This document shows, in pieces, positions 1 through 12,189 of a stretch of DNA of 12,281 bases. The position numbers were made by a program, and so were the translations under genes. How positions within the stretch are numbered: position 1 is the stretch's first letter; each line of letters begins with the position of its first letter. Below the pieces are notes generated by a model, which saw nothing but the letters and a program-made list of their open reading frames with translations, did not search any database and was not told the DNA's origin. This DNA is from an uncultured bacterium. Its GTDB lineage: Bacteria; Verrucomicrobiota; Kiritimatiellia; RFP12; UBA1067. The stretch lies in the NCBI GenBank assembly GCA_902779075.1, contig CACZAK010000300.1:1-12281 (forward strand). Direction: 5' to 3'.

Positions 1-1
1 T

Positions 2-115
2 GCCTGGGGCGGTTGCAAGTGTGCGACTACCTTGATGAAATTCACATATCTTGCGAATAAGTGGGATGAGATCAAGGCAAAGGAAAAAAAGCCAAAAAAG
101 AGCAAGTGCGCATAA
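2..115 (+). CDS. C-terminal fragment of a truncated gene, Lys-rich tail
   Basis: Reading from base 2 gives 37 open codons ending in TAA at 113-115. The peptide begins AWGGCKCATTLMKFTYLANK and ends in a very basic tail (AKEKKPKKSKCA). The start is outside the window. The competing frame from base 1 is open for only 19 codons (stop at 58-60), so this frame is preferred. The Lys-rich tail would suit nucleic-acid binding, but no family is recognised. Its stop codon overlaps the AT-rich stretch upstream of the first repeated CCGTTGC/CATCAT element, so the next transcription unit begins right behind it. Reality as a gene is likely but not certain, because only a short part is visible. Confidence 0.45.
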   Translation, partial: AWGGCKCATTLMKFTYLANKWDEIKAKEKKPKKSKCA

Positions 116-126
116 AATTTGCAAAT

Positions 127-161
127 GGGCCGTTGCTATCATCAGAAACCTACGGCATCAT
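127..161 (+). promoter_or_regulatory. Repeated promoter-like element, copy 1
   Basis: CCGTTGC starts at 130 and CATCAT ends at 161. Read as a promoter, TTGCTA (133-138) and CATCAT (156-161) are separated by 17 nt. An inverted repeat GCCGT/ACGGC flanks the variable centre. An AT-rich block with TAAAAT at 113-118 lies just upstream. The gene at 198 follows after 36 nt. The alternative reading is transcription from the AT-rich block, with the inverted repeat forming a 5' leader hairpin. Confidence 0.6.
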
Positions 162-197
162 ATGCGGCGTAAACAACTCAATGGAAAGGACGATAAA

Positions 198-722
198 ATG
201 AAACAGAAAAAGGGCAGGGGGCTGAACGAGACCATCCTCGGTTGGTTCAAGCGGGTGCATCCCGAAGAGCTGTGGGCGGTCGGGGAGATGCCGCCGGCGC
301 TGACGTTCGAGGACATGCGGAAGAGCATGGAGTCGGGCGACTCGATGGGCGAGGCCGCGAGGCACAGCGACACGATGACGCGCGAGATGATGCTCGACCA
401 TCTTGCCAAGCTCTGCGGCAAGGGAACCGACGAACTGATCGGCTGGTGCAACGCGAAGTTCCGCGAGAAAACAAGAAGCGAGTACAAGGCAAAGCATCCA
501 AGGGCGAAGAAGCCGAAGCCCGACGTCATCTGCATGAACGCGGGTAAGGCCAGCGTCGCGCTCCAGAAGGTGTCGGGATCGCTGGCGGGGATAGACTGCC
601 TTGCGCTTGCCGACGGTCTTGGCAAGGATGGAATCGACGAGCTGTGCGGCATCATCCGCTTCATGAAGTCTCAGATCGAGGACTGCGAGTCGACGCTCCG
701 CGAGGCGTCAAGCCTCCTATAG
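198..722 (+). CDS. Hypothetical protein, 174 aa, shares C-terminal module with the 2070 gene
   Basis: The function is not recognised. The 174-residue product has a basic N-terminus (MKQKKGRG), a segment ETILGWFKRVHPEELW, and a helical middle ending in a basic stretch (residues 94-108, KAKHPRAKKPKP). The C-terminal region from residue 116 can be aligned without gaps to the end of the protein encoded at 2070-2471; the shared core is IDxxALADG followed by acidic residues and IDEL. There is no signal peptide or membrane segment, so a cytoplasmic protein is expected. The start at 198 is chosen because AAAGGA (184-189) lies 8 nt upstream. In-frame ATGs at 51 and 180 lack a ribosome site, and 51 lies upstream of the putative promoter. 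A strong hairpin terminator follows at 757-797, so it is a single-gene unit. Confidence 0.8.
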   Translation: MKQKKGRGLNETILGWFKRVHPEELWAVGEMPPALTFEDMRKSMESGDSMGEAARHSDTMTREMMLDHLAKLCGKGTDELIGWCNAKFREKTRSEYKAKHPRAKKPKPDVICMNAGKASVALQKVSGSLAGIDCLALADGLGKDGIDELCGIIRFMKSQIEDCESTLREASSLL

Positions 723-736
723 CGCGAAAGGCGATC

Positions 737-755
737 CTCGCGGGGCGTCCGCGAG
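737..755 (+). other. GC-rich hairpin just after the 198 gene
   Basis: CTCGCGG and CCGCGAG pair across a 5-nt loop, 15 nt after the stop codon and immediately before the terminator at 757. There is no T tract of its own. It may protect the transcript 3' end or be incidental in GC-rich DNA. Confidence 0.35.
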
Positions 756-756
756 C

Positions 757-797
757 GCCGTCGGAGTTTCATGCGAAACGCCGACGGCTTTCCTTTC
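757..797 (+). terminator. Intrinsic terminator after the 198 gene
   Basis: GCCGTCGG-a-GTTTC pairs with GAAAC-g-CCGACGGC around an ATGC loop, giving 13 pairs with one A/G mismatch. The tail is TTTCCTTTC. Confidence 0.8.
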
Positions 798-818
798 GTC
801 GAAAAGCCGGCGTTGCCG

Positions 819-847
819 TTGTTCGACGCGGAGGACTTTGGTAAAAT
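819..847 (+). promoter_or_regulatory. Canonical sigma-70-like promoter with extended -10
   Basis: TTGTTC (819-824), a 17-nt spacer and TAAAAT (842-847), with TGG before the -10 box giving an extended -10. The predicted start of transcription is near 854. It lies upstream of repeated element copy 2, so the ~1031 gene may have two tandem promoters. It also shows that translation cannot begin at the ATG at 848, which touches the -10 box. Confidence 0.6.
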
Positions 848-895
848 ATGTGCATCGTAAAAAGCCATTATTCTCCGTTGAAGATTTATGCAGAA

Positions 896-930
896 GGGCC
901 GTTGCTATTCGTGAATTATTACGGCATCAT
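896..930 (+). promoter_or_regulatory. Repeated promoter-like element, copy 2
   Basis: Identical over 35 nt to copy 3 at 1363-1397. TTGCTA is at 902-907 and CATCAT at 925-930, with a 17-nt spacer and the GCCGT/ACGGC inverted repeat. The AT-rich sequence AAGATTTATG lies upstream. A short hairpin (946-960, GCGGG-AAAGG-CCCGC) follows. Confidence 0.65.
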
Positions 931-945
931 AGTGTCGTTCCTTGA

Positions 946-960
946 GCGGGAAAGGCCCGC
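946..960 (+). other. 5' leader hairpin with AAAGG loop (copy 2 leader)
   Basis: GCGGG and CCCGC pair around AAAGG. Comparable hairpins with different stem bases but the same type of loop sit 7 to 15 nt after elements 3 and 5. Confidence 0.35.
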
Positions 961-1030
961 AGGAAGGACGCAACCGAAGGCCGTCAAGGAGGCGAGGCTC
1001 GGACACTTATTCCTGGAGAGGGACGACGCG

Positions 1031-1246
1031 GTGATGATCCACGACACCGACTACACGAACGAGCCGAAGAGCGAGGCCGAGAAGACCGAGATGGGCGAGT
1101 GGGTAAGACAAATCATGGAGAAGGTTCTCGGCGCTCCGCTGCCGCGCGAGGTGAACGTCCTCGTCGACCCCAACGCGGGCGCGAGGGGCGCCAGATGCTA
1201 CTGCACCTCCGCCACATACGTGGTCGCCCGCACCGAGCTGAAGTGA
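1031..1246 (+). CDS. Small hypothetical protein, about 71 aa (start uncertain)
   Basis: The family is not recognised. The frame is open from 848, but that ATG abuts a -10 box, and the frame then runs through the repeated element, so the real start must be internal. GTG at 1031 (or ATG at 1034) is the best choice, with GAGGGA (1018-1023) 7 to 10 nt upstream. The product is an acidic N-terminal part (HDTDYTNEPKSEAEKTE), an amphipathic helix (GEWVRQIMEKVLG) and a C-terminal segment with two cysteines (CYC) near NVLVDPNAGARGA. A stronger ribosome-site-like AAGGAGG at 986-992 has no usable start codon at normal spacing, leaving the N-terminus open. The gene stops at 1246 and is followed 24 nt later by a strong terminator, so it is its own unit. 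Confidence 0.6.
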   Translation: MMIHDTDYTNEPKSEAEKTEMGEWVRQIMEKVLGAPLPREVNVLVDPNAGARGARCYCTSATYVVARTELK

Positions 1247-1270
1247 GCGAAGGCGACAGCGAAGCCAATG

Positions 1271-1308
1271 ACCCCGTCCTGCACAAGGGCGGGGTTCGTT
1301 TTTTTTTC
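1271..1308 (+). terminator. Intrinsic terminator after the ~1031 gene
   Basis: CCCCGTCC (1272-1279) pairs with GGGCGGGG (1287-1294) including one G-U pair, with loop TGCACAA. A long T run (TTCG then nine Ts) follows. This is the strongest T tail in the window. Confidence 0.9.
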
Positions 1309-1362
1309 TGCGCCGAATCGCCGCTGTTCTGCGGGCGAAAAAATCTTCATAAATCTTCAGAC

Positions 1363-1397
1363 GGGCCGTTGCTATTCGTGAATTATTACGGCATCAT
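1363..1397 (+). promoter_or_regulatory. Repeated promoter-like element, copy 3
   Basis: Identical over 35 nt to copy 2. TTGCTA is at 1369-1374 and CATCAT at 1392-1397. It starts about 55 nt after the preceding T tail, with AT-rich sequence (1339-1359) in between. The gene at 1470 follows after 72 nt. Confidence 0.65.
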
Positions 1398-1411
1398 GTG
1401 TGCTGTTCCAA

Positions 1412-1428
1412 CGGGGAAAAGGCCCCCG
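1412..1428 (+). other. 5' leader hairpin with AAAAGG loop (copy 3 leader)
   Basis: CGGGG pairs with CCCCG around AAAAGGC, 14 nt after element 3. Stem bases differ from the copy 2 hairpin while pairing is kept. Confidence 0.35.
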
Positions 1429-1469
1429 CGAGGGACTCGAAAGAAAACCGAAAAGAAAGGAAGGATAAC

Positions 1470-1718
1470 ATGGCCAGATATTCAGCAGGATTCCTGAAGA
1501 GCCTCGAATCCGATTATTCGATTGTCTCGCGAGAGACGCGCAAGCCGACGGATGACGAGATTCGCAAGCTCAAGGAGATGGATGCCGAGGTTCATTGCCT
1601 TCAGGATGAGGTTAACCGCCTTCAGGACGTAATCCACCAGAAGAGGCGCGAGGCGGACGCTTTCGCCGACAAGATATTTGGGCATAAGGTGTTCAAGGTC
1701 AAGAAGCCGAGCCGCTGA
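1470..1718 (+). CDS. Small coiled-coil hypothetical protein, 82 aa
   Basis: The function is not recognised. After MARYSAGFLKSLESDYS, the middle of the protein (about residues 25-65) is strongly helical with heptad-like spacing of Leu, Met, Val and Ile (DEIRKLKEMDAEVHCLQDEV onward), which suggests a coiled-coil or helical dimer. The tail FGHKVFKVKKPSR is basic. The start at 1470 is supported by AAAGGAAGGA at 1456-1465, 4 nt upstream. It is preceded by repeated element copy 3. The next gene begins 26 nt after the stop with its own ribosome site and no promoter or terminator between, so 1470 and 1745 form a two-gene unit. The highly charged content fits a cytoplasmic scaffold or a nucleic-acid-binding partner, but this is only a guess. 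Confidence 0.75.
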   Translation: MARYSAGFLKSLESDYSIVSRETRKPTDDEIRKLKEMDAEVHCLQDEVNRLQDVIHQKRREADAFADKIFGHKVFKVKKPSR

Positions 1719-1744
1719 ACATCATCATCGAAAGGAATACAAAG

Positions 1745-1954
1745 ATGGCGAAGACAACGGTCAGGTTCAGCGCGTCTGGCTACGGAAGCGAGACGCGGAA
1801 GTTCGATTCAGCGGACGAGGCGCGCGGGCACATCGAACGCGACGCGGCGGAGATCGCGGCCGACCACGGCGGCGAGGTCGTGGACTACGGCAACGGCGAG
1901 TGGGTCGTGAACTCGCGCAGCGGCGAGGAGATCGCCCGCTGGGAGATCGCGTGA
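1745..1954 (+). CDS. Small acidic hypothetical protein, 69 aa
   Basis: No family is recognised. The product starts MAKTTVRFSASGYGSETRKF and looks like a compact alpha/beta fold: a first strand (TVRFSA), a helix rich in Ala, Glu and Asp (SADEARGHIERDAAEIAADH), then short strands (GGEVVDYGNGEWVVNS and EIARWEIA). It is acidic overall. The start is supported by AAAGGA at 1731-1736, 8 nt upstream of ATG. It is the second gene of the unit driven from element copy 3. A GC-rich hairpin at 1978-1999 probably ends this transcript. Codon use (G/C-ending) agrees with its neighbours, which supports real coding. Confidence 0.75.
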   Translation: MAKTTVRFSASGYGSETRKFDSADEARGHIERDAAEIAADHGGEVVDYGNGEWVVNSRSGEEIARWEIA

Positions 1955-1977
1955 AAGGGTGCTTGAGCCTGTCCTGC

Positions 1978-1999
1978 GCCGGGCGGATTGTCGCCCGGC
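1978..1999 (+). terminator. Hairpin terminator after the 1745 gene
   Basis: GCCGGGCG pairs perfectly with CGCCCGGC around GATTGT. There is only a poor T tail (TCCGTTGCCTTTC). The preceding bases and left arm (CTGTCCTGCGCCGGGCGG, 1969-1986) recur exactly at 2730-2747. It abuts repeated element copy 5. Confidence 0.55.
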
Positions 2000-2000
2000 T

Positions 2001-2032
2001 CCGTTGCCTTTCTTTCGCCTTTGGCGCATCAT
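2001..2032 (+). promoter_or_regulatory. Repeated promoter-like element, divergent copy 5
   Basis: CCGTTGC and GCATCATGTG are present at exactly the same 32-nt spacing as in the other copies. TTGCCT is at 2004-2009 and CATCAT at 2027-2032. The GCCGT/ACGGC inverted repeat and the AT-rich upstream sequence are lost. The spacing is kept while the hairpin is not, which favours a promoter over an RNA structure. Confidence 0.5.
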
Positions 2033-2039
2033 GTGCGAT

Positions 2040-2055
2040 GTGGCAAAAAGGCCAC
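2040..2055 (+). other. 5' leader hairpin with AAAAAG loop (copy 5 leader)
   Basis: GTGGC pairs perfectly with GCCAC around AAAAAG, 7 nt after element 5. The true ribosome site AAAGGA for the 2070 gene follows directly. Confidence 0.35.
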
Positions 2056-2069
2056 AGAAAGGAAAACAC

Positions 2070-2471
2070 ATGAGTAAACAATGGAATCCCGACGGAGGCT
2101 TCCCTTCGCCGGAGCATGTCGAGAGAATGGTCGCCGCCGAGGTGAGACACCTCGCCGAAGCGGAGTACGCGCGCCAGCGCGGAGTCGAGGAGAAAAGCGA
2201 AAGCCGCAGAGACCGCCTACGCGCGGCCTACAGGCTTCAGCACCGGGAGGTCGGGCGCAAGGTCAACCTCGACGCCGTCTTCGCCCTGGTGGGCAACGTG
2301 GCGGCAATCACGCTCAGCGCGTGGCGGGGGCTCTTCGCCCTCGACATGGTAGCCCTTGCCGACGCGGGCAGCCGGGAGGACTTCGACGACCTCGAGTTTC
2401 TCGTGACCCGCTCGCTCGGCGAGCTGAACGGCGTGAAGAACCTGCTCGCCCTCGCCCGCCGCCTCGCGTAG
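2070..2471 (+). CDS. Hypothetical protein, 133 aa, paralogous C-terminus to the 198 gene
   Basis: The function is not recognised. The N-terminal half (residues 15-66) is a highly charged helix rich in Arg, Glu and Ala. The C-terminal half (75-133) is a hydrophobic helical region containing LDMVALADAGSREDFDDL. This part aligns without gaps, and to the last residue, with residues 116-174 of the 198 product; by hand 12 of 59 positions are identical, most of them around [IL]Dxx-ALAD and [IF]D[DE]L. The start ATG at 2070 is supported by AAAGGA (2058-2063). It lies downstream of element copy 5 and its leader hairpin. No transmembrane prediction is certain; the hydrophobic stretch 67-97 is interrupted by Asn, Arg and Asp. 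It is followed by a separate promoter for the 2528 gene. Confidence 0.78.
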   Translation: MSKQWNPDGGFPSPEHVERMVAAEVRHLAEAEYARQRGVEEKSESRRDRLRAAYRLQHREVGRKVNLDAVFALVGNVAAITLSAWRGLFALDMVALADAGSREDFDDLEFLVTRSLGELNGVKNLLALARRLA

Positions 2472-2481
2472 CGGGACAGGC

Positions 2482-2493
2482 ATTTGATATAAT
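2482..2493 (+). promoter_or_regulatory. Extended -10 promoter for the 2528 gene
   Basis: TATAAT at 2488-2493 is preceded by TGA (extended -10, TGnTATAAT). No convincing -35 box is at 17 nt (CGCGTA). Predicted transcription starts near 2500, about 28 nt before the ATG. Confidence 0.5.
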
Positions 2494-2527
2494 GTCCGCA
2501 TCAACAACCCTACAAAGGAGACCCACT

Positions 2528-2686
2528 ATGGACACAATCCTGGTCAAAGTCCGCCTCCCTTGCAGTGCTGCTCGATTGGAGAATGCGCTACTGAAGGCTG
2601 CTCACAATGGACATTGGCACGATGCACAGGTAAAGGTGGACGAGAAAGGAAACCTAATCGTGACCTACCCGGACGACTCGAAGTGA
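2528..2686 (+). CDS. Very small hypothetical protein, 52 aa
   Basis: No family is recognised. The 52-residue product begins MDTILVKVRLPCSAARLENA and continues with an alternating pattern: strand (TILVKVRL), helix (SAARLENALLKAAHNG), strand (AQVKVDEKG), strand (NLIVTYPDDSK). It is therefore likely a single small beta-alpha-beta-beta domain. The start is well supported by AAAGGAG at 2514-2520, 7 nt upstream. It has its own extended -10 promoter and a perfect 12-bp terminator right after the stop, so it is a monocistronic unit. It is the only unit in this cluster without the repeated CCGTTGC/CATCAT element or a shared promoter, so it may be controlled differently from its neighbours. Confidence 0.75.
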   Translation: MDTILVKVRLPCSAARLENALLKAAHNGHWHDAQVKVDEKGNLIVTYPDDSK

Positions 2687-2693
2687 GTCGGAC

Positions 2694-2725
2694 AGACCCC
2701 GGCGGAACCGACCGCCGGGGTCTTT
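2694..2725 (+). terminator. Intrinsic terminator after the 2528 gene
   Basis: AGACCCCGGCGG pairs perfectly (12 bp) with CCGCCGGGGTCT around AACCGA. The tail is only TT beyond the stem. It starts 8 nt after the stop codon. Confidence 0.85.
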
Positions 2726-2739
2726 GCGTCTGTCCTGCG

Positions 2740-2763
2740 CCGGGCGGTTCACCGCCCGGTTTC
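2740..2763 (+). terminator. Second tandem terminator hairpin
   Basis: CCGGGCGG pairs perfectly with CCGCCCGG around TTCA and is followed by TTTC. It shares CTGTCCTGCGCCGGGCGG (2730-2747) with the hairpin at 1969-1986, so the two look like copies of one terminator module. Confidence 0.65.
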
Positions 2764-2810
2764 TCGCTTTCGGAACCGCGAGATTTCCCCTGCGAAAATA
2801 TAATCAAATA

Positions 2811-2844
2811 GGCCGTTGCTATTCCTGGAAACATACGGCATCAT
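2811..2844 (+). promoter_or_regulatory. Repeated promoter-like element, copy 4
   Basis: TTGCTA is at 2816-2821 and CATCAT at 2839-2844 with a 17-nt spacer. The GCCGT/ACGGC inverted repeat is present and the centre (TTCCTGGAAACA) differs from copies 2 and 3. The upstream sequence is AT-rich and contains TATAAT at 2799-2804. A small hairpin CACC-GTTG-GGTG (2849-2860) follows. It serves the 2907 gene. Confidence 0.6.
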
Positions 2845-2906
2845 GTGTCACCGTTGGGTGGCCGAGGTGGTTGCCCTCGATGAAAACCTAAAGGAAAGGC
2901 AACAGG

Positions 2907-3896
2907 ATGAACAACGACGAAAACTGGGAAAAGGAAATCGACTGGTCGAAGCGCACGGCCGTTGTGGGCGGACCGATCTTCTACGAGTTCGTGAGGTCGA
3001 AGGCGATACCCGCGCTCGACGAGGGGCTTGCGCAGATGGCGGATGCCAAGGCAGCCGAAGAGCGCAAGCTTCGGAGGTGGAACGCGATAGCGGAGCGGGC
3101 CGCAAAGCTCTCCGACTGCTTCGCGGCCTTGACGGAAGAGGAGGACTTCATGCGCATGGTGCATGACTTCGACGAAAGCACCAAGGCCCTGTTCAAAGGG
3201 GAATGCATACCCTCCATCGGAGCATGGCTTTTGATCGGAAAGAGGTTCACCGACGCGATGAAGAAGGGCTCGACCGTTCCAGCGAAGTACGAGGCGGAAC
3301 TCAACTCGGTCACGCAGGAAATCGCCAGCATGACGGCGGTCAGGGACATCTTCCGCTCGTTCGTCGCGGCAAGCGACAACGACTACCGCCTGCGGTGCGC
3401 GCCGACGCGGTTCAGGACGCGCGTGTTCCGCGACCTCTCGCAGAACTTCAACGACATCGTCGAATCATCTCTGAAGGTCGATTTCGCCGAGCTGCCGAAG
3501 GCCATTGACAGCCTTTCGCAGACGCTCAAGGTCATCATCGACGTCTCGCGCAAGATGCAGGGCATCTGCCGCCGCGCGAAGAAGGACATCAAGCGGCACG
3601 GCGGCCGCTTCTGGTCGAAGCTCGTAAAGCCCGCCACGTTGCCCCGTGTCGGGCTTTTCGCGTCTGGTCGGGCAATCATCCTTCCCTTGCGCCGGAACGC
3701 GACACAAGCCAACGTCGCGGTCTTGTGGTGGATTGCCGCTGCCACGTGGCATGGTGCAGATGCAATTTTGGGCGGATACGACAACGTTGAGCTGCACGGC
3801 CTTGGCTCGTCTATCAACTGCCTTGGCCGCCGCGTCACTTCCTACACCACCCGCGACGCGAAGGAGATCGCCAAACTGCTGGCAATGGTGCCATAA
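2907..3896 (+). CDS. Hypothetical helical protein, 329 aa, reads through a terminator-like hairpin
   Basis: The function is not recognised. Residues 1-241 look like a normal soluble, mostly helical protein with charged helices (for example AKAAEERKLRRWNAIAERAA and AELPKAIDSLSQTLKVII). They end in a basic segment (RRAKKDIKRHGGRFWSKLVK). The start ATG at 2907 is supported by AAGGAAAGG at 2891-2899, and element copy 4 lies upstream. At codon 241 the frame enters a hairpin with a T tail (3627-3658) that looks like an intrinsic terminator; a TAA in the +1 frame lies at 3625-3627, at the base of its stem. The remaining 88 residues (including VLWWIAAATWHGADAILGGY and SSINCLGRRVTSYTTRDAKE) differ in character. 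The gene may therefore have ended near 3627 and been extended by a frameshift or rearrangement, or the tail may belong to a different, start-less gene. Confidence 0.65.
   Translation: MNNDENWEKEIDWSKRTAVVGGPIFYEFVRSKAIPALDEGLAQMADAKAAEERKLRRWNAIAERAAKLSDCFAALTEEEDFMRMVHDFDESTKALFKGECIPSIGAWLLIGKRFTDAMKKGSTVPAKYEAELNSVTQEIASMTAVRDIFRSFVAASDNDYRLRCAPTRFRTRVFRDLSQNFNDIVESSLKVDFAELPKAIDSLSQTLKVIIDVSRKMQGICRRAKKDIKRHGGRFWSKLVKPATLPRVGLFASGRAIILPLRRNATQANVAVLWWIAAATWHGADAILGGYDNVELHGLGSSINCLGRRVTSYTTRDAKEIAKLLAMVP
3627..3658 (+). terminator. Terminator-like hairpin inside the 2907 reading frame
   Basis: AAGCCCG-C-CACG pairs with CGTG-T-CGGGCTT around TTGCCC (11 pairs, one C/T mismatch), followed by TTCG. 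It is as good as the other terminators of this cluster but lies 238 nt before the stop of the open frame. Confidence 0.6.
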
Positions 3897-3926
3897 GCGC
3901 TGCCGGCGGCGAGAGTTGCAAACCCT

Positions 3927-3951
3927 TGTAAAATGGGCCTTTCGCGGGGCC
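3927..3951 (-). terminator. Possible weak terminator of the regulator gene
   Basis: On the - strand GGCC and GGCC pair around an 8-nt loop and are followed by CATTTTAC, about 50 nt after the regulator stop. The short stem makes this tentative. The rest of 3897-3999 shows no gene. Confidence 0.25.
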
Positions 3952-3999
3952 TGTCCCTCAAGTTTCCAATGGCATGGGACGATATTCCCATTGCGTCTG

Positions 4000-5133
4000 C
4001 TATCGCATGCCAGAATTGCGCCACTTCTTCGGTGAGAGGCCGGTCGCGTCTCGGAAGACGTTGACGAGGTAGGCGGGATTGCAGTAGCCGGTCCGGCGGG
4101 CGATTTCCGCGACGGTGAGCGACGATCCGCGCAGCAGCCGCTTCGCCTCCTCCAGCCGCATGAGCGCGAGCAGCTTCGCGGGCGGCATGCCGAACTGCGC
4201 GGCGAAGGCGCGGTCGAGCGTAGGGCGGGACACGCCGAGTCGCATGGCAAGCTCTTCCGTGGACGGCGGCGCGGCGAGTTCAGCACGATAGATATCGCGG
4301 GCGTCGCGCACGAGGCCGCGCGGCACGGCGAGCGTGTCGGTCGAGGCCCGCTCCGCGACGCCACGCGGCGAGATTAGCATTGCCTTCGACGGTGCCCTGC
4401 CGCCCGACATGAGACGGTCGAGCATAGCCGCCCCGACATAGCCGTTGCGCGACATGTCGCACCTGACGGACGAGATGGGGACGATCTGGCTTTCGCACAG
4501 CGGCTCGTCGTCGCCCGCGCCGAGGATGGCCACGTCGTCCGGGACGGACAGCCCCGCCGCAAGCGCGGCCGACTCCGCGCGCGAGGCGTCCGCGTCGTCG
4601 AAGGTGAAGAGGCCGAGCGGTTTTGGCGCATTCTCGATGTGGCTTTGCAGCCAGTGCGAAAGCGCTTTCCAGTCGTCCGACTTGGTCCGCTCCGGGGCGA
4701 GCGTCCACGCCCATTTTCCCGGCGGCAGCGCAAGACCCTCGGCGAAGCCGCCGAAGCGCAGTTCGTGCTGATGGCTCCAGTTTGTGGAGAACCAGGCCGT
4801 GTGCCGAAATCGCCGCCCAGCAAGATAGGCGGCGGCGAGGCGACCAAGCGCGGCGTTGTCGTTGGCCACGCGGGGCAGGCGCACGTCGGGTCTCGTCAGA
4901 CTGAGGTCGACGACGGGGATGCGTCGTCGGCGAAGGTCAACGACACGCCGCAGCGTGTCCGCGTCGTCGCGCAGCGTCACGAGCGCACCGTCGCCCGTCC
5001 AGCCGTCGAGCATGTGCGTCAGGCGGTCGGCAACGGTCAGGTGCCATCCGTGCGAGCGAGCGAAGATGGAAATCCCCTTGAACCTTCCGGGCGACGAGGG
5101 AGTGATCAGCAGAAGAACGTTTTTCGGCGTCAT
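4000..5133 (-). CDS. XylR-type transcriptional regulator (LacI-like sensor plus AraC HTH)
   Basis: The 377-residue protein has the two-part build of the XylR family. Residues 4-265 form a periplasmic-binding-protein-like sensor: the opening strand VLLLITPSS, RFKGISIFARSHGWHL, and DDVAILGAGDDEPLCESQIV before ISSVRCD, which matches the conserved sugar-sensor end of these regulators. Residues 279-377 form an AraC DNA-binding domain with helix-turn-helices near 291-311 (TEELAMRLGVSRPTLDRAF) and 339-362 (TVAEIARRTGYCNPAYLVNV), ending FRDATGLSPKKWR. There is no AraC-type cupin. The start is right, since the sensor strand begins directly. It has no ribosome site and sits 6 nt from its -10 box. It is divergent from the secreted-enzyme operon and probably controls it in response to a sugar. 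The ligand is unknown, so the xylose name should not be taken literally. Confidence 0.93.
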   Translation of the reverse strand: MTPKNVLLLITPSSPGRFKGISIFARSHGWHLTVADRLTHMLDGWTGDGALVTLRDDADTLRRVVDLRRRRIPVVDLSLTRPDVRLPRVANDNAALGRLAAAYLAGRRFRHTAWFSTNWSHQHELRFGGFAEGLALPPGKWAWTLAPERTKSDDWKALSHWLQSHIENAPKPLGLFTFDDADASRAESAALAAGLSVPDDVAILGAGDDEPLCESQIVPISSVRCDMSRNGYVGAAMLDRLMSGGRAPSKAMLISPRGVAERASTDTLAVPRGLVRDARDIYRAELAAPPSTEELAMRLGVSRPTLDRAFAAQFGMPPAKLLALMRLEEAKRLLRGSSLTVAEIARRTGYCNPAYLVNVFRDATGLSPKKWRNSGMR

Positions 5134-9129: not shown

Positions 9130-12100
9130 ATGAATCTGAAGACGATGCTTGCCGCATTTGCGGCTGCGGGGACTGTTTTTGCGGCATGGGGCGCGAAAAT
9201 CTCGGGGGAAAGCCTTGCGCTCGGCCAATACCGCGTGTTCGGCGGGTTGACTTCCAATGCCAAGAGTCGTCCCGCAACGTTCAAGCATGGCGGTATCCAG
9301 GTTGTACACGCGGACGGCGCCGTTTCGCTGCGGCTTGCCGAGACGGGGCGCGAAGAGACGGAGGACGCGGAGTCGAAGACGGTTTCCATCAGATTCAAGG
9401 ACGAGTATTATCCGTTCGAGGTGACGCGCCACGTGAAGACGTGGCGCGATTGCGACGCGGTCGAGACCTGGGTGGATATACGGCATGGAGAGCCCGGCGC
9501 GGTGCGGCTCATCCATGCCGACAGCACCGCAATGTCGCTGTACATGCCCAACACGGCCGTGCGCGTGATGACCCTTGCCGGGTCTTGGTGCGACGAGGGC
9601 AACATCAGCGAGGCGCCTGTCGCCAACGGCCACATCGTGGAACTCGCGTCGCGATCAGGCACTCGCAATGCCTGGAACGTCAATTCCGCGATGATGGTTT
9701 CGTTTGGCGATGGGGTGGATGAAGAGCATGGCATGGTTCTTGGCGTCGCGCTGGAGTGGACGGGCACGTCATGTCGAAGGATCCGTCGCCGCTACGATGG
9801 GAAGGAGACGGAGATATTCGCCGGAGTTGACATGACGTCCGGGCCTTACACGCTCGATCCGGGCGTCACGTTCACGACGCCAAGGGCGATTCTCGTCTGG
9901 TCGGAGAAAGGCAGGGGCGAGGTGTCGCGGCAGTACCACCGCTGGGCTAGGCGTCACCTGATGCCTCACGGCGACGTATTGCACCCCGTTCTGCTGAACA
10001 GCTGGGAGGGGTCTTCTTTCGATTTCACGGAGACGACCTTGACGGACATGATGGACGGCGTCGCGAAAATGGACGGCGAGATGTTCGTTCTCGATGATGG
10101 CTGGTTTGGCTTGGGCAAGCATGCGCGCGACGAGAAGAACAGGGACAGGGCCGGACTCGGCGACTGGTGCGTGAACACCAATAAGCTGCCGCACGGCCTT
10201 GGTTGGCTGGCGGACGAAGCGAAGAGGCGCGGGCTGCAGTTCGGGCTCTGGGTCGAGCCGGAAATGGCCAATACGAGAAGCGACCTCGCAACGGCGCATC
10301 CAGACTGGCTGCTCGGTGAGGCGAATCGCCGACTGATCTGCGGACGCGGCGGCACACAGGCGGTTCTCGACCTGACCAACGGTGCCGTGCGCGACAACCT
10401 CTTCGGACAGTTAGACACGCTGTATTCCTCTGTTCCGTCGCTCGCCTACGTGAAATGGGACTGCAACTGCGACATCCAGAATCTCGGCTCGCGCAATCTG
10501 GCCGCAGACAGGCAGCCGAATCTGTGGTACGACTACACGATGGGGCTGTACGAGATTCTGGCGCGTCTGAAGGAGCGTCATCCCGGCATCATGGTGCAGG
10601 CTTGCGCGGGCGGCGGCGGCCATATGGATTTCGGCTTCCTGCGCTATGCGGACGAGTTCTGGACGAGTGACTGCACCGACCCGTACAAGCGCATTTTCAT
10701 ACAGTGGGGAGCCTCGCAGTTCTATCCAGCCTCCGCGATGGCTTGCCACGTTACGGCATCGCCGAATATCGCCACGAAGCGCGTGACGCCCATCAAGTAC
10801 CGCTTTGACGTCGCCATGACAGGACGGCTTGGTTTTGAGCTTCATCCGAAGGATATGACCGCGGACGAAATCGCGTTCGCCAAGGCTGCCGTCGCGGATT
10901 ACAAGCGAATCCGTCCCGTCGTCCAGCGCGGCGACCTCTACCGCCTTGTCTCGCCTTATGAAAAGCCGCTCTCCGCGCTGATGTACGTGGGAGCGGAGCG
11001 GGATGCTGCCGTCGTGTTCGCGCTTGGTCTGAAGGACTTCGGTGAACATGCGGAAACGCTGAAACTTCGCGGGCTCAATCCTGTCGCGAGGTATTCTGTC
11101 AGGGAAATCAATTGCGGGAAACGGCTCCATTTTGCGGACAGGGAGGACGGTGGCAGTGTCCGAACAGGCCGTGAACTGATGGAGAAAGGTATCGCCGTCC
11201 GGCTCTCTGGCGACTACGACTCCGCCGTTTTCGAGCTGGAGCGTCTGTGCGCGGACGGCGCACGCGACGAAGCGTACCTCTTTGCCTACTTCAGCAACAA
11301 CGGCCACGGCGGCAGGAAAGGCGAAGCGGCGGGGATGCGGCTCGCTTATTCCTACGATGCGAAGAACTGGACGCCTCTCGCCGGTGAAAAGCCGTTTCTC
11401 GTGCCGACTGTCGGCAAGGGGGGGCTTTTGCGCGATCCATCGATTTGCCGCGGCCCTGACGGAACCTTCCATCTCGTGTGGACGACCGGCTGGCGAGACA
11501 AGACAATCGGTCACGCTTCTTCAAAAGACCTCGTGCACTGGAGCGAACAGCAGGAAATCCCCGTGATGGCGCACGAGCCTGCTGCGAAAAACTGCTGGGC
11601 GCCGGAGGTGACCTACAACCCTGAAGACGGTCTTTTCTATATCTATTGGGCCACAACCATTCCGGGACGGCATTCCGGCGACGCGACAAACGAAAAGAAG
11701 GACAGGCACAATCATCGGATCTACCTTACAACGACGAAAGACTGGAGAACGTTCACTCCGGCGCGGCTCTGGTTCAATCCGCCGTTCAGCGTCATCGACG
11801 CAGCGCTGTTCAACATCGGCGGAAAATGGATGATGGTCGTCAAAAACGAGAATGGAGACAAGAAGGACATTCGTACAGTCTGGACGGAGAGCCTTGCGGC
11901 GGGATGGGAATCCGCTGGGGTTCCGTTGAAGGTCACGGCGGCGGGGACATGGGTCGAGGGGCCGAGTCCGCTTATGGTTGACGATACGCTCTACATCTAC
12001 TTCGACCGCTACACGAAGGGCCGCTACGGCGCGGTGAAGTCCACTGACGGCGGTGGTACGTGGCGGGACACGTCGGACGAAGTGTCGTTCCCAAAAGGCT

Positions 12101-12189
12101 GCCGTCACGGAACGGCGTTCGCCGTACAGAAGCAACTGGTTGAATCCCTTATCCGCCATTCGGAATCTGAGAGCGTGAAAGGGACCTGA
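9130..12189 (+). CDS. Secreted GH36 alpha-galactosidase fused to a GH43-like propeller
   Basis: This 1019-residue enzyme carries two complete catalytic domains. A signal peptide (residues 1-19 or so) precedes GH36, which spans about 24-704. GH36 landmarks are LLNSWEGSSFDF (289-299), FVLDDGWFG (319-327), FGLWVEPEM (371-379), KWDCN with nucleophile Asp444, CAGGGGHMD (492-500) and WTSDCTD with likely acid/base Asp514. The usual GGGGR is GGGGH here (His498). From about 711 a GH43-like five-bladed propeller follows directly. It has LLRDPSI (Asp769, base), VIDAALF (Asp890), WVEGPSP (Glu943, acid) and RHGTA (His993), so both active sites look intact. GH36 removes alpha-galactose (relatives act on beta-L-arabinopyranose); GH43 members commonly cut arabinofuranose or xylose. 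GAGGAGG (9119-9125) precedes the start, and the gap from the previous gene is 10 nt, so it is the last gene of the operon. Confidence 0.93.
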   Translation: MNLKTMLAAFAAAGTVFAAWGAKISGESLALGQYRVFGGLTSNAKSRPATFKHGGIQVVHADGAVSLRLAETGREETEDAESKTVSIRFKDEYYPFEVTRHVKTWRDCDAVETWVDIRHGEPGAVRLIHADSTAMSLYMPNTAVRVMTLAGSWCDEGNISEAPVANGHIVELASRSGTRNAWNVNSAMMVSFGDGVDEEHGMVLGVALEWTGTSCRRIRRRYDGKETEIFAGVDMTSGPYTLDPGVTFTTPRAILVWSEKGRGEVSRQYHRWARRHLMPHGDVLHPVLLNSWEGSSFDFTETTLTDMMDGVAKMDGEMFVLDDGWFGLGKHARDEKNRDRAGLGDWCVNTNKLPHGLGWLADEAKRRGLQFGLWVEPEMANTRSDLATAHPDWLLGEANRRLICGRGGTQAVLDLTNGAVRDNLFGQLDTLYSSVPSLAYVKWDCNCDIQNLGSRNLAADRQPNLWYDYTMGLYEILARLKERHPGIMVQACAGGGGHMDFGFLRYADEFWTSDCTDPYKRIFIQWGASQFYPASAMACHVTASPNIATKRVTPIKYRFDVAMTGRLGFELHPKDMTADEIAFAKAAVADYKRIRPVVQRGDLYRLVSPYEKPLSALMYVGAERDAAVVFALGLKDFGEHAETLKLRGLNPVARYSVREINCGKRLHFADREDGGSVRTGRELMEKGIAVRLSGDYDSAVFELERLCADGARDEAYLFAYFSNNGHGGRKGEAAGMRLAYSYDAKNWTPLAGEKPFLVPTVGKGGLLRDPSICRGPDGTFHLVWTTGWRDKTIGHASSKDLVHWSEQQEIPVMAHEPAAKNCWAPEVTYNPEDGLFYIYWATTIPGRHSGDATNEKKDRHNHRIYLTTTKDWRTFTPARLWFNPPFSVIDAALFNIGGKWMMVVKNENGDKKDIRTVWTESLAAGWESAGVPLKVTAAGTWVEGPSPLMVDDTLYIYFDRYTKGRYGAVKSTDGGGTWRDTSDEVSFPKGCRHGTAFAVQKQLVESLIRHSESESVKGT

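Follow-up and report, generated by a model that had tools for sequence, protein, structure and literature searches.

What does a 32-nt element do that stands five times, on one strand, ahead of a row of genes without assigned function? The question is raised by a stretch of 12,281 nucleotides from an uncultured bacterium of the Kiritimatiellia (contig CACZAK010000300.1 of assembly GCA_902779075.1), referred to here at its full length as the window. A preliminary description of the window had placed five copies of the element, which begins with CCGTTGC and ends with GCATCAT, ahead of five small genes and had read them as promoters of a small regulon. Comparison with the genomes of relatives makes it probable that the element forms the core of a promoter repeated through a family of prophages, in which it would serve a row of moron-like genes as well as the integrase operon, DNA-binding genes, and a small RNA.

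Copies of the element in the window and in related genomes

A scan of the window found CCGTTGC-N18-GCATCAT, exact at both ends and at the positions first described, in all five copies, which lie on the plus strand at 130..161, 899..930, 1366..1397, 2001..2032, and 2813..2844 (copies 1 to 5); the number of exact matches expected from base composition is ~7e-5. When up to three mismatches were allowed, the window contained 6 matches compared with a shuffle mean of 1.56, and six or more were found in 1 of 200 shuffles; the sixth match, at 387-418 on the minus strand with 3 mismatches, looks like chance. The identity of copies 2 and 3 over 35 nt, which had also been claimed, was confirmed and consists of GGG plus the 32-nt element. 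Copy 1 contains TTGCTAT and TACGGCATCAT, and copy 4 is the sequence outlier, with TTGCCTT and TTGGCGCATCAT. The AT-rich DNA reported upstream of copies 1 to 4 was present for the first three, as plus-strand UP-like blocks at 112..126 (87% AT), 881..895 (73%), and 1348..1362 (67%), but not for copy 4, whose upstream 15 nt are only 27% AT; copy 5 also has such a block, at 2795..2809 (93%), giving a range of 67-93% AT over 15 nt for copies 1, 2, 3, and 5.

The genome-wide check of the motif was made on the genomes of relatives, where it revealed same-strand rows of copies, mostly ahead of gene starts. The strict pattern, CCGTTGCTAT-N11-TACGGCATCAT, scanned across genome_contigs (84,980 species), occurred as 64 copies in 28 stretches from 17 assemblies, 14 of which belong to the order of RUG14528, an order that includes ruminant-gut Kiritimatiellae. 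The record labels of the 17 assemblies were Kiritimatiellae/-ia (5), Lentisphaerae/-ia (4), Verrucomicrobia (1), 'uncultured bacterium' (5), Clostridia (1), and Selenomonadales (1); the contigs labelled Clostridia (4.3 kb) and Selenomonadales (3.4 kb) hold near-identical pieces of the array and are probably mis-binned. In the larger assemblies the copies formed same-strand rows with a spacing of roughly 0.4-2.4 kb, and exact copies numbered ten on RUG14528 contig 2, eleven on RUG12088 contig 42, and eight on RUG11483 contig 104. With two or fewer mismatches the strict pattern matched in all 17 genomes, whereas a control pattern with one extra spacer base gave 4 chance-like matches in 4 of them. 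Among the 161 genomes of the order, TTGNTAT-N11-TACGGCATNNT was present as 81 exact copies in 21 genomes and, with at most one mismatch, gave 135 matches in 39 genomes versus 16 for the backwards control. A match with an 18-bp spacer inside a gene in locus L087 looks like chance, and an exact match in L073 lies, as judged by eye, upstream of an ArsR-like operon. A general host promoter was considered and rejected: the box TA(C/T)GG(C/T)A(T/A).T was found in 0 of 269 other upstream regions (which mix phage and host genes and are based on a crude gene caller), once on the reverse strand, and not at all in shuffles, while a looser TATGG form occurred once.

To describe the anatomy of the element we reduced 205 raw matches (120 distinct sites) to 63 non-redundant sites having the exact 32-nt length and less than 75% identity over 132 nt; since the pattern decided which sites were chosen, the matched letters are to some extent conserved by construction, which does not hold for the flanks. 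The sites contained 38.7 bits of information over 32 nt, with a variable spacer, and had the layout of a -35 sequence, TTG(C/A)TAT, a near-fixed spacer of 17 bp (sometimes 18) whose middle varies, and then TACGGCATCAT; spacers of both 17 and 18 bp occur, as in sigma promoters. The TACGG at -17 to -13, just ahead of CATCAT, resembles the TRTG -16 element as given in the excerpted text of PMC6570832, and two near-identical divergent promoters have TATGG, a match to TRTG. Outside the search pattern, positions -18 to -3 of the element formed a block that was 80% AT, with A at -17 in 90%, at -15 in 83%, and at -7 in 83% of the sites. Relative to the predicted transcript start this block lies at about -56 to -41, and therefore sits where the UP element lies, the consensus of which spans -59 to -38 in the same excerpt. 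A Shine-Dalgarno-like triplet and the ATG of an open reading frame of at least 45 aa followed 8-140 nt downstream at 52 of the 63 sites, compared with 293 of 1000 random positions. The relatives back the original reading of each copy as a putative promoter, TTGC(T/C)(A/T)-N17-CATCAT, and also the proposal of a shared regulon, which appears, however, to belong to a prophage family and not to the bacterium.

Prophage setting and the genes behind the element

Contig 2 of RUG14528 carries, upstream of the array, genes resembling tail-fibre and lysis genes (by eye) together with PHROG matches to a tail tape measure protein (E 1.7e-67), a fused capsid/protease (E 5.1e-102), and a terminase (E 4.4e-29); a serine integrase (1.9e-108) is present at the far end, near tRNA genes. 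The array itself holds an amidoligase (2.4e-74) and a gamma-glutamyl cyclotransferase (9.1e-20; moron category of PHROGs) amid small genes without assigned function. Inspection by eye showed that contig G003:C15 repeats this gene order and that G012:C104, G012:C195, and G007:C54 have similar late genes ahead of the array. Tail or lysis-like phage genes precede the row on all five inspected contigs that extend past its head; the remaining array contigs stop short of that point. The array of the window is 95.8% identical to that of RUG14528 over 116-868 and 96.7% over 975-2475, and its similarity to the prophage relatives stops near 3725, with host-type genes after it; one end of such a prophage, next to carbohydrate genes, is therefore probably present in the window. 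The host would be a Kiritimatiellae relative. The location of the array inside a prophage but outside the core lytic operons was seen in the relatives and is extended to the window by similarity. The order of units was modular between genomes. Two arrays, L032:139-1634 and L035:18577-19611, end beside opposite-strand umuC-like genes (by eye), and lone homologues of window gene 4, each with its own putative promoter, lie among host genes at L080:3724-4193 and L081:4243-4712, like solitary cassettes.

The element was also found away from the array. In ten loci (L029, L031, L046, L050, L062, L065, L068, L069, L075, and L104) it stands ahead of a DUF2924 gene and a serine recombinase gene, with a gene for a sigma-like protein directly upstream; in L074 it precedes the same two genes, with tRNA genes in place of the sigma-like gene. 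One 51-kb IMG/VR contig carries the sigma-like gene, the integrase promoter, and the array together. The phage sigma-like family comprises L069:2441-3307 and 11 aligned relatives, located before integrase operons or early recombination-type genes. The motif further precedes a HARE-HTH gene that runs antisense within the packaging region (L044 by Pfam; L045, L047, L078, and L107 by resemblance) and HTH_17/MerR-like genes (L042 and L060 by Pfam, partly below cut-off; L043 and L066 by resemblance), a second small gene lying between motif and HTH_17/MerR-like gene in L060 and L066.

Divergent to several array promoters is a conserved noncoding RNA with the invariant sequence CGGACGATGGGAT.GGG (12 sequences), and a terminator-like hairpin often lies behind it. 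Because the reading frame common to the other copies is broken by a stop codon in one of them, we read the divergent element as an RNA; folding z-scores for six copies ranged from -3.41 to +0.87. Rfam gave no relevant match to this RNA in the loci that were scanned. The conserved block starts 2 nt after the -10 sequence in 11 of the 12 sequences and 3 nt after it in L015 (about 9 groups when near-identical sequences are merged), which fits a transcription start there, and its invariant part starts no more than about 5 nt from the predicted transcription start. Divergent promoter pairs have one AT block in common, and some of the promoters of the RNA drift to TTGACT and TAATAT. Positions of the RNA include L002:1104-, L005:3686+, L019:7588-, L034:15912+ and 19686+, and L048:1216-, 2597-, and 5958+, three copies thus being in L048; it was not found in the window. 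Pairing of the RNA with array leaders was considered and rejected, since the four rows with a 12-nt complement amounted to two sites counted twice, one of them a copy of the RNA and the other resembling a truncated copy, and neither was a leader.

We propose that RNA polymerase would bind the AT-rich UP-like block (about -56 to -41), read the -35 sequence TTG(C/A)TAT and, 17 bp further, an extended -10 made up of TACGG and CATCAT, and start about 7 nt past CATCAT, so that in many array units the 5' end of the transcript would lie at or just before a hairpin. One such promoter would stand ahead of every unit in a tandem moron-like row, at one end of ruminant-gut Kiritimatiellae prophages of roughly 50-60 kb, and the integrase operon, a few DNA-binding genes, the divergent small RNA, and the array would together form one phage regulon separate from the late genes. 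Promoter activity and its timing are predictions from sequence.

The remaining features of the window, all on the plus strand unless noted, follow the order of the copies. Unit 1 has one gene of 174 aa at 198..722. In unit 2 a leader hairpin at 946..960 (GCGGG-AAAGG-CCCGC; the same hairpin in L001 had p=0.05) precedes a gene at 1031..1246, 71 aa when read from GTG; between 931 and 1031 the window lacks ~60 bp found in RUG14528 (L032), where this segment contains the beginning of a homologous 102-aa gene (start codon and first 12-13 codons), and the window copy may be truncated. A rho-independent terminator called by the terminator scan lies between units 2 and 3, at 1270..1296. Unit 3 contains a leader hairpin at 1412..1428 (its L001 homologue had p=0.000 of 200 shuffles, one stem G of which is A in the window) and genes at 1470..1718 (82 aa) and 1745..1954 (69 aa); unit 4 contains a hairpin at 2039..2056 (TGTGGC-AAAAAG-GCCACA; L001 homologue p=0.015), a 133-aa gene at 2070..2471 with homologues in 15 of the 161 genomes, and a 52-aa gene at 2528..2686, with a weak aRib match below cut-off and a MiiA-motif match barely above it. 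Ahead of copy 5 a GC-rich hairpin at 2686..2731 (strand unspecified) is a possible terminator not called by the scan. Unit 5 has a hairpin at 2856..2876 (p=0.03) and the last gene of the array, at 2907..3896; with 329 aa (homologues in L032, L034, L035, and L037 have ~250 aa) it departs from the earlier statement that each copy precedes a different small gene. Searches of Pfam, NCBIfam, and PADLOC with seven window genes each, and of PHROGs with two of the seven, gave no convincing match, and the genes of units 1 and 3 and the first of unit 4 have no assigned function. We place the approximate end of similarity to the prophage arrays at 3725..3780 (strand unspecified), a boundary drawn by inference, with host genes from about 4000. 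Window 3779-3906 is 87.5% identical to L074:5617-5744, a segment just past a serine recombinase, and may mark an attachment region. Further on, 9130-12189 encodes a protein of 1019 aa that combines GH36 melibiase domains with a GH43-like domain.

Candidate readers of the element

We lean toward host RNA polymerase with a housekeeping-type sigma as the reader, likelier than a phage sigma. The competing proposal is that the phage-encoded sigma2-sigma4 protein, whose gene lies beside the integrase promoter, directs polymerase to TTGCTAT/TACGGCATCAT in a phage-only regulon, which we consider rather unlikely; we give the same low weight to its fuller form, in which a phage sigma of the extracytoplasmic function (ECF) type would read a 39-bit family-specific promoter and integration, small-gene cassettes, and small RNA would make up one lysogeny regulon unreadable by host polymerase alone. 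That the sigma-like gene immediately precedes the motif, DUF2924, and serine recombinase in the ten loci (L029 to L104) speaks for a phage sigma, and a strict, high-information motif also favours a dedicated one. Sigma matches of the protein ranged from weak to clear and were mostly below curated cut-offs, with the Pfam ECF sigma above cut-off in 1 of 5 members tested; sigma2 and sigma4 domains were nevertheless both found, and the fold supports them. An AlphaFold2 model (predicted local distance difference test 77.8, predicted template-modelling score 0.39), which has N-terminal strands, matched nearly only sigma factors or sigma-bearing complexes in the PDB among 50 of 175 matches listed, but only 1 of those 50 had E<=0.001 and top TM-scores were about 0.2-0.4. 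The sigma-like gene occurred in 13 of the 161 genomes, 10 of the 21 with the exact motif versus 3 of the 140 without (Fisher 3.4e-8). A capsid control performed equally well (18 capsid genomes, 11 with the exact motif), so the association may reflect phage carriage alone, and we do not accept co-occurrence as proof; when the comparison was narrowed to genomes having a close capsid (E below 1e-180; 13 genomes), the sigma-like gene was found in 9 of the 11 that carry the exact motif and in neither of the 2 that lack it, numbers too few to decide. Against a phage sigma, sigma-like proteins as little as 21-27% identical adjoin the same unchanged motif, and 11 of the 21 motif genomes had no sigma match at E<=1e-6 (the bins being fragmentary). 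ECF sigmas are not known to carry a domain for recognition of an extended -10, and TTG, a 17-18 bp spacer, and an extended -10 fit a housekeeping-type sigma better. The divergence of sigma-like proteins beside an unchanged motif, together with the drift of some promoters to TTGACT and TAATAT, led us to rate the housekeeping-type sigma as likelier.

Several results weigh against a promoter read in this way. CATCAT lacks the first T of TATAAT, a plain sigma-70 scan called 0 of the 5 window copies, and the near-invariance of the element exceeds what a housekeeping promoter needs. No gene start was found by our test at 11 of the 63 sites. Leader hairpins reached p<=0.05 at 24 of 62 sites and p<=0.01 at 16, most leaders not exceeding chance; many have the form GGG-RRRGG-CCC with differing stems (GCGGG/CCCGC, CGGGGG/CCCCCG, GCGGCGG/CCGCCGC). 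The terminator scan of window 1-4100 called 3 sites, a pair of which overlap as a single terminator, compared with a shuffle mean of 5.6, and the region has one canonical plus-strand terminator; these counts do not establish a terminator for each unit.

The excess conservation could also come from an operator or activator box for a phage or host DNA-binding regulator, overlapping an ordinary promoter; we regard this as less probable still than a phage sigma. TACGG is near-invariant beyond what a -10 requires, and divergent promoter pairs have a single AT block in common, which speaks for a box, but this reading comes with no candidate regulator, CCG varies (21 of 63 sites) while the right half is constant, and symmetry was absent in the 63 sites, by which a palindromic operator was rejected. 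The variation in CCG bears equally on the idea, entertained in the preliminary description, that a promoter farther upstream drives a structured leader RNA and that the element forms its 5' end. GCCGU/ACGGC pairing is possible in copies 1, 2, 3, and 5, and a hairpin follows part of the sites, but where CCG is replaced its would-be partners stay fixed, the right half hardly varies, compensation was not seen, and four pairs are kept at only 40 of 63 sites. Rfam gave nothing relevant on window 1-4000, eight array loci, and part of L048, and we consider such a leader highly improbable. The same very low probability attaches to an integron-like site at which cassettes would be shuffled: the modular unit order and the single units with the element among host genes (L080, L081) suggest it, but the halves of the element are not complementary, so attC foldback symmetry is lacking, the element also occurs at integrase and divergent RNA promoters, and homologous recombination between promoter copies could explain the shuffling. 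If the phage promoter is accepted, TTG(C/A)TAT-N11-TACGGCATCAT offers a handle for finding accessory genes and prophages in a poorly known ruminant-gut lineage; it ties dozens of small genes without assigned function into one likely phage regulon and makes testable whether lysogenic genes are run by a prophage-encoded sigma factor.

Comparison with known systems

The phage protein beside the integrase promoter shares the sigma2-sigma4 layout of ECF sigma factors, but the motif looks different from typical ECF promoters. Among the literature matches listed, from a search whose coverage stopped short of subscription papers, there was none that described the motif or promoters of Kiritimatiellae phages. 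Both morons and repeated promoters have precedents in phages. In the excerpted texts of PMC3203893 and PMC11373665, the extended start-associated sequence (ESAS) of cluster K mycobacteriophages is a repeated phage-specific element that stands ahead of several genes of the right arm belonging to different families, and in Adephagia it carries SigA-like -35 and -10 boxes 17-18 bp apart; it is the nearest precedent we found. The present element, judged by its sequence, has the same box spacing and the same repetition before many phage genes. As described in those excerpts, ESAS differs in having a 15-17 bp imperfect inverted repeat, none of which was seen in the 63 sites, and in being paired with a 13-bp start-associated sequence at the start codon; no fixed 13-mer was seen by eye in our site profile, which is anchored on the element and not on start codons. 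Phage morons, according to PMC7067206, are accessory genes that adjoin lytic genes or run antisense to them, and some carry a promoter of their own. Here a promoter-like element precedes each unit, but unlike the morons of that account it recurs as eleven to thirteen near-identical copies in a row (RUG14528, RUG12088). The middle promoter Pm of phage Mu likewise is a phage promoter with a partial AT-rich UP element, but, as PMC4390567 describes, it depends on the activator Mor, which has its site in place of a -35 box. Relative to ESAS as excerpted, what is new is a row of small-gene modules under one near-invariant putative promoter common to the integrase operon and a small RNA.

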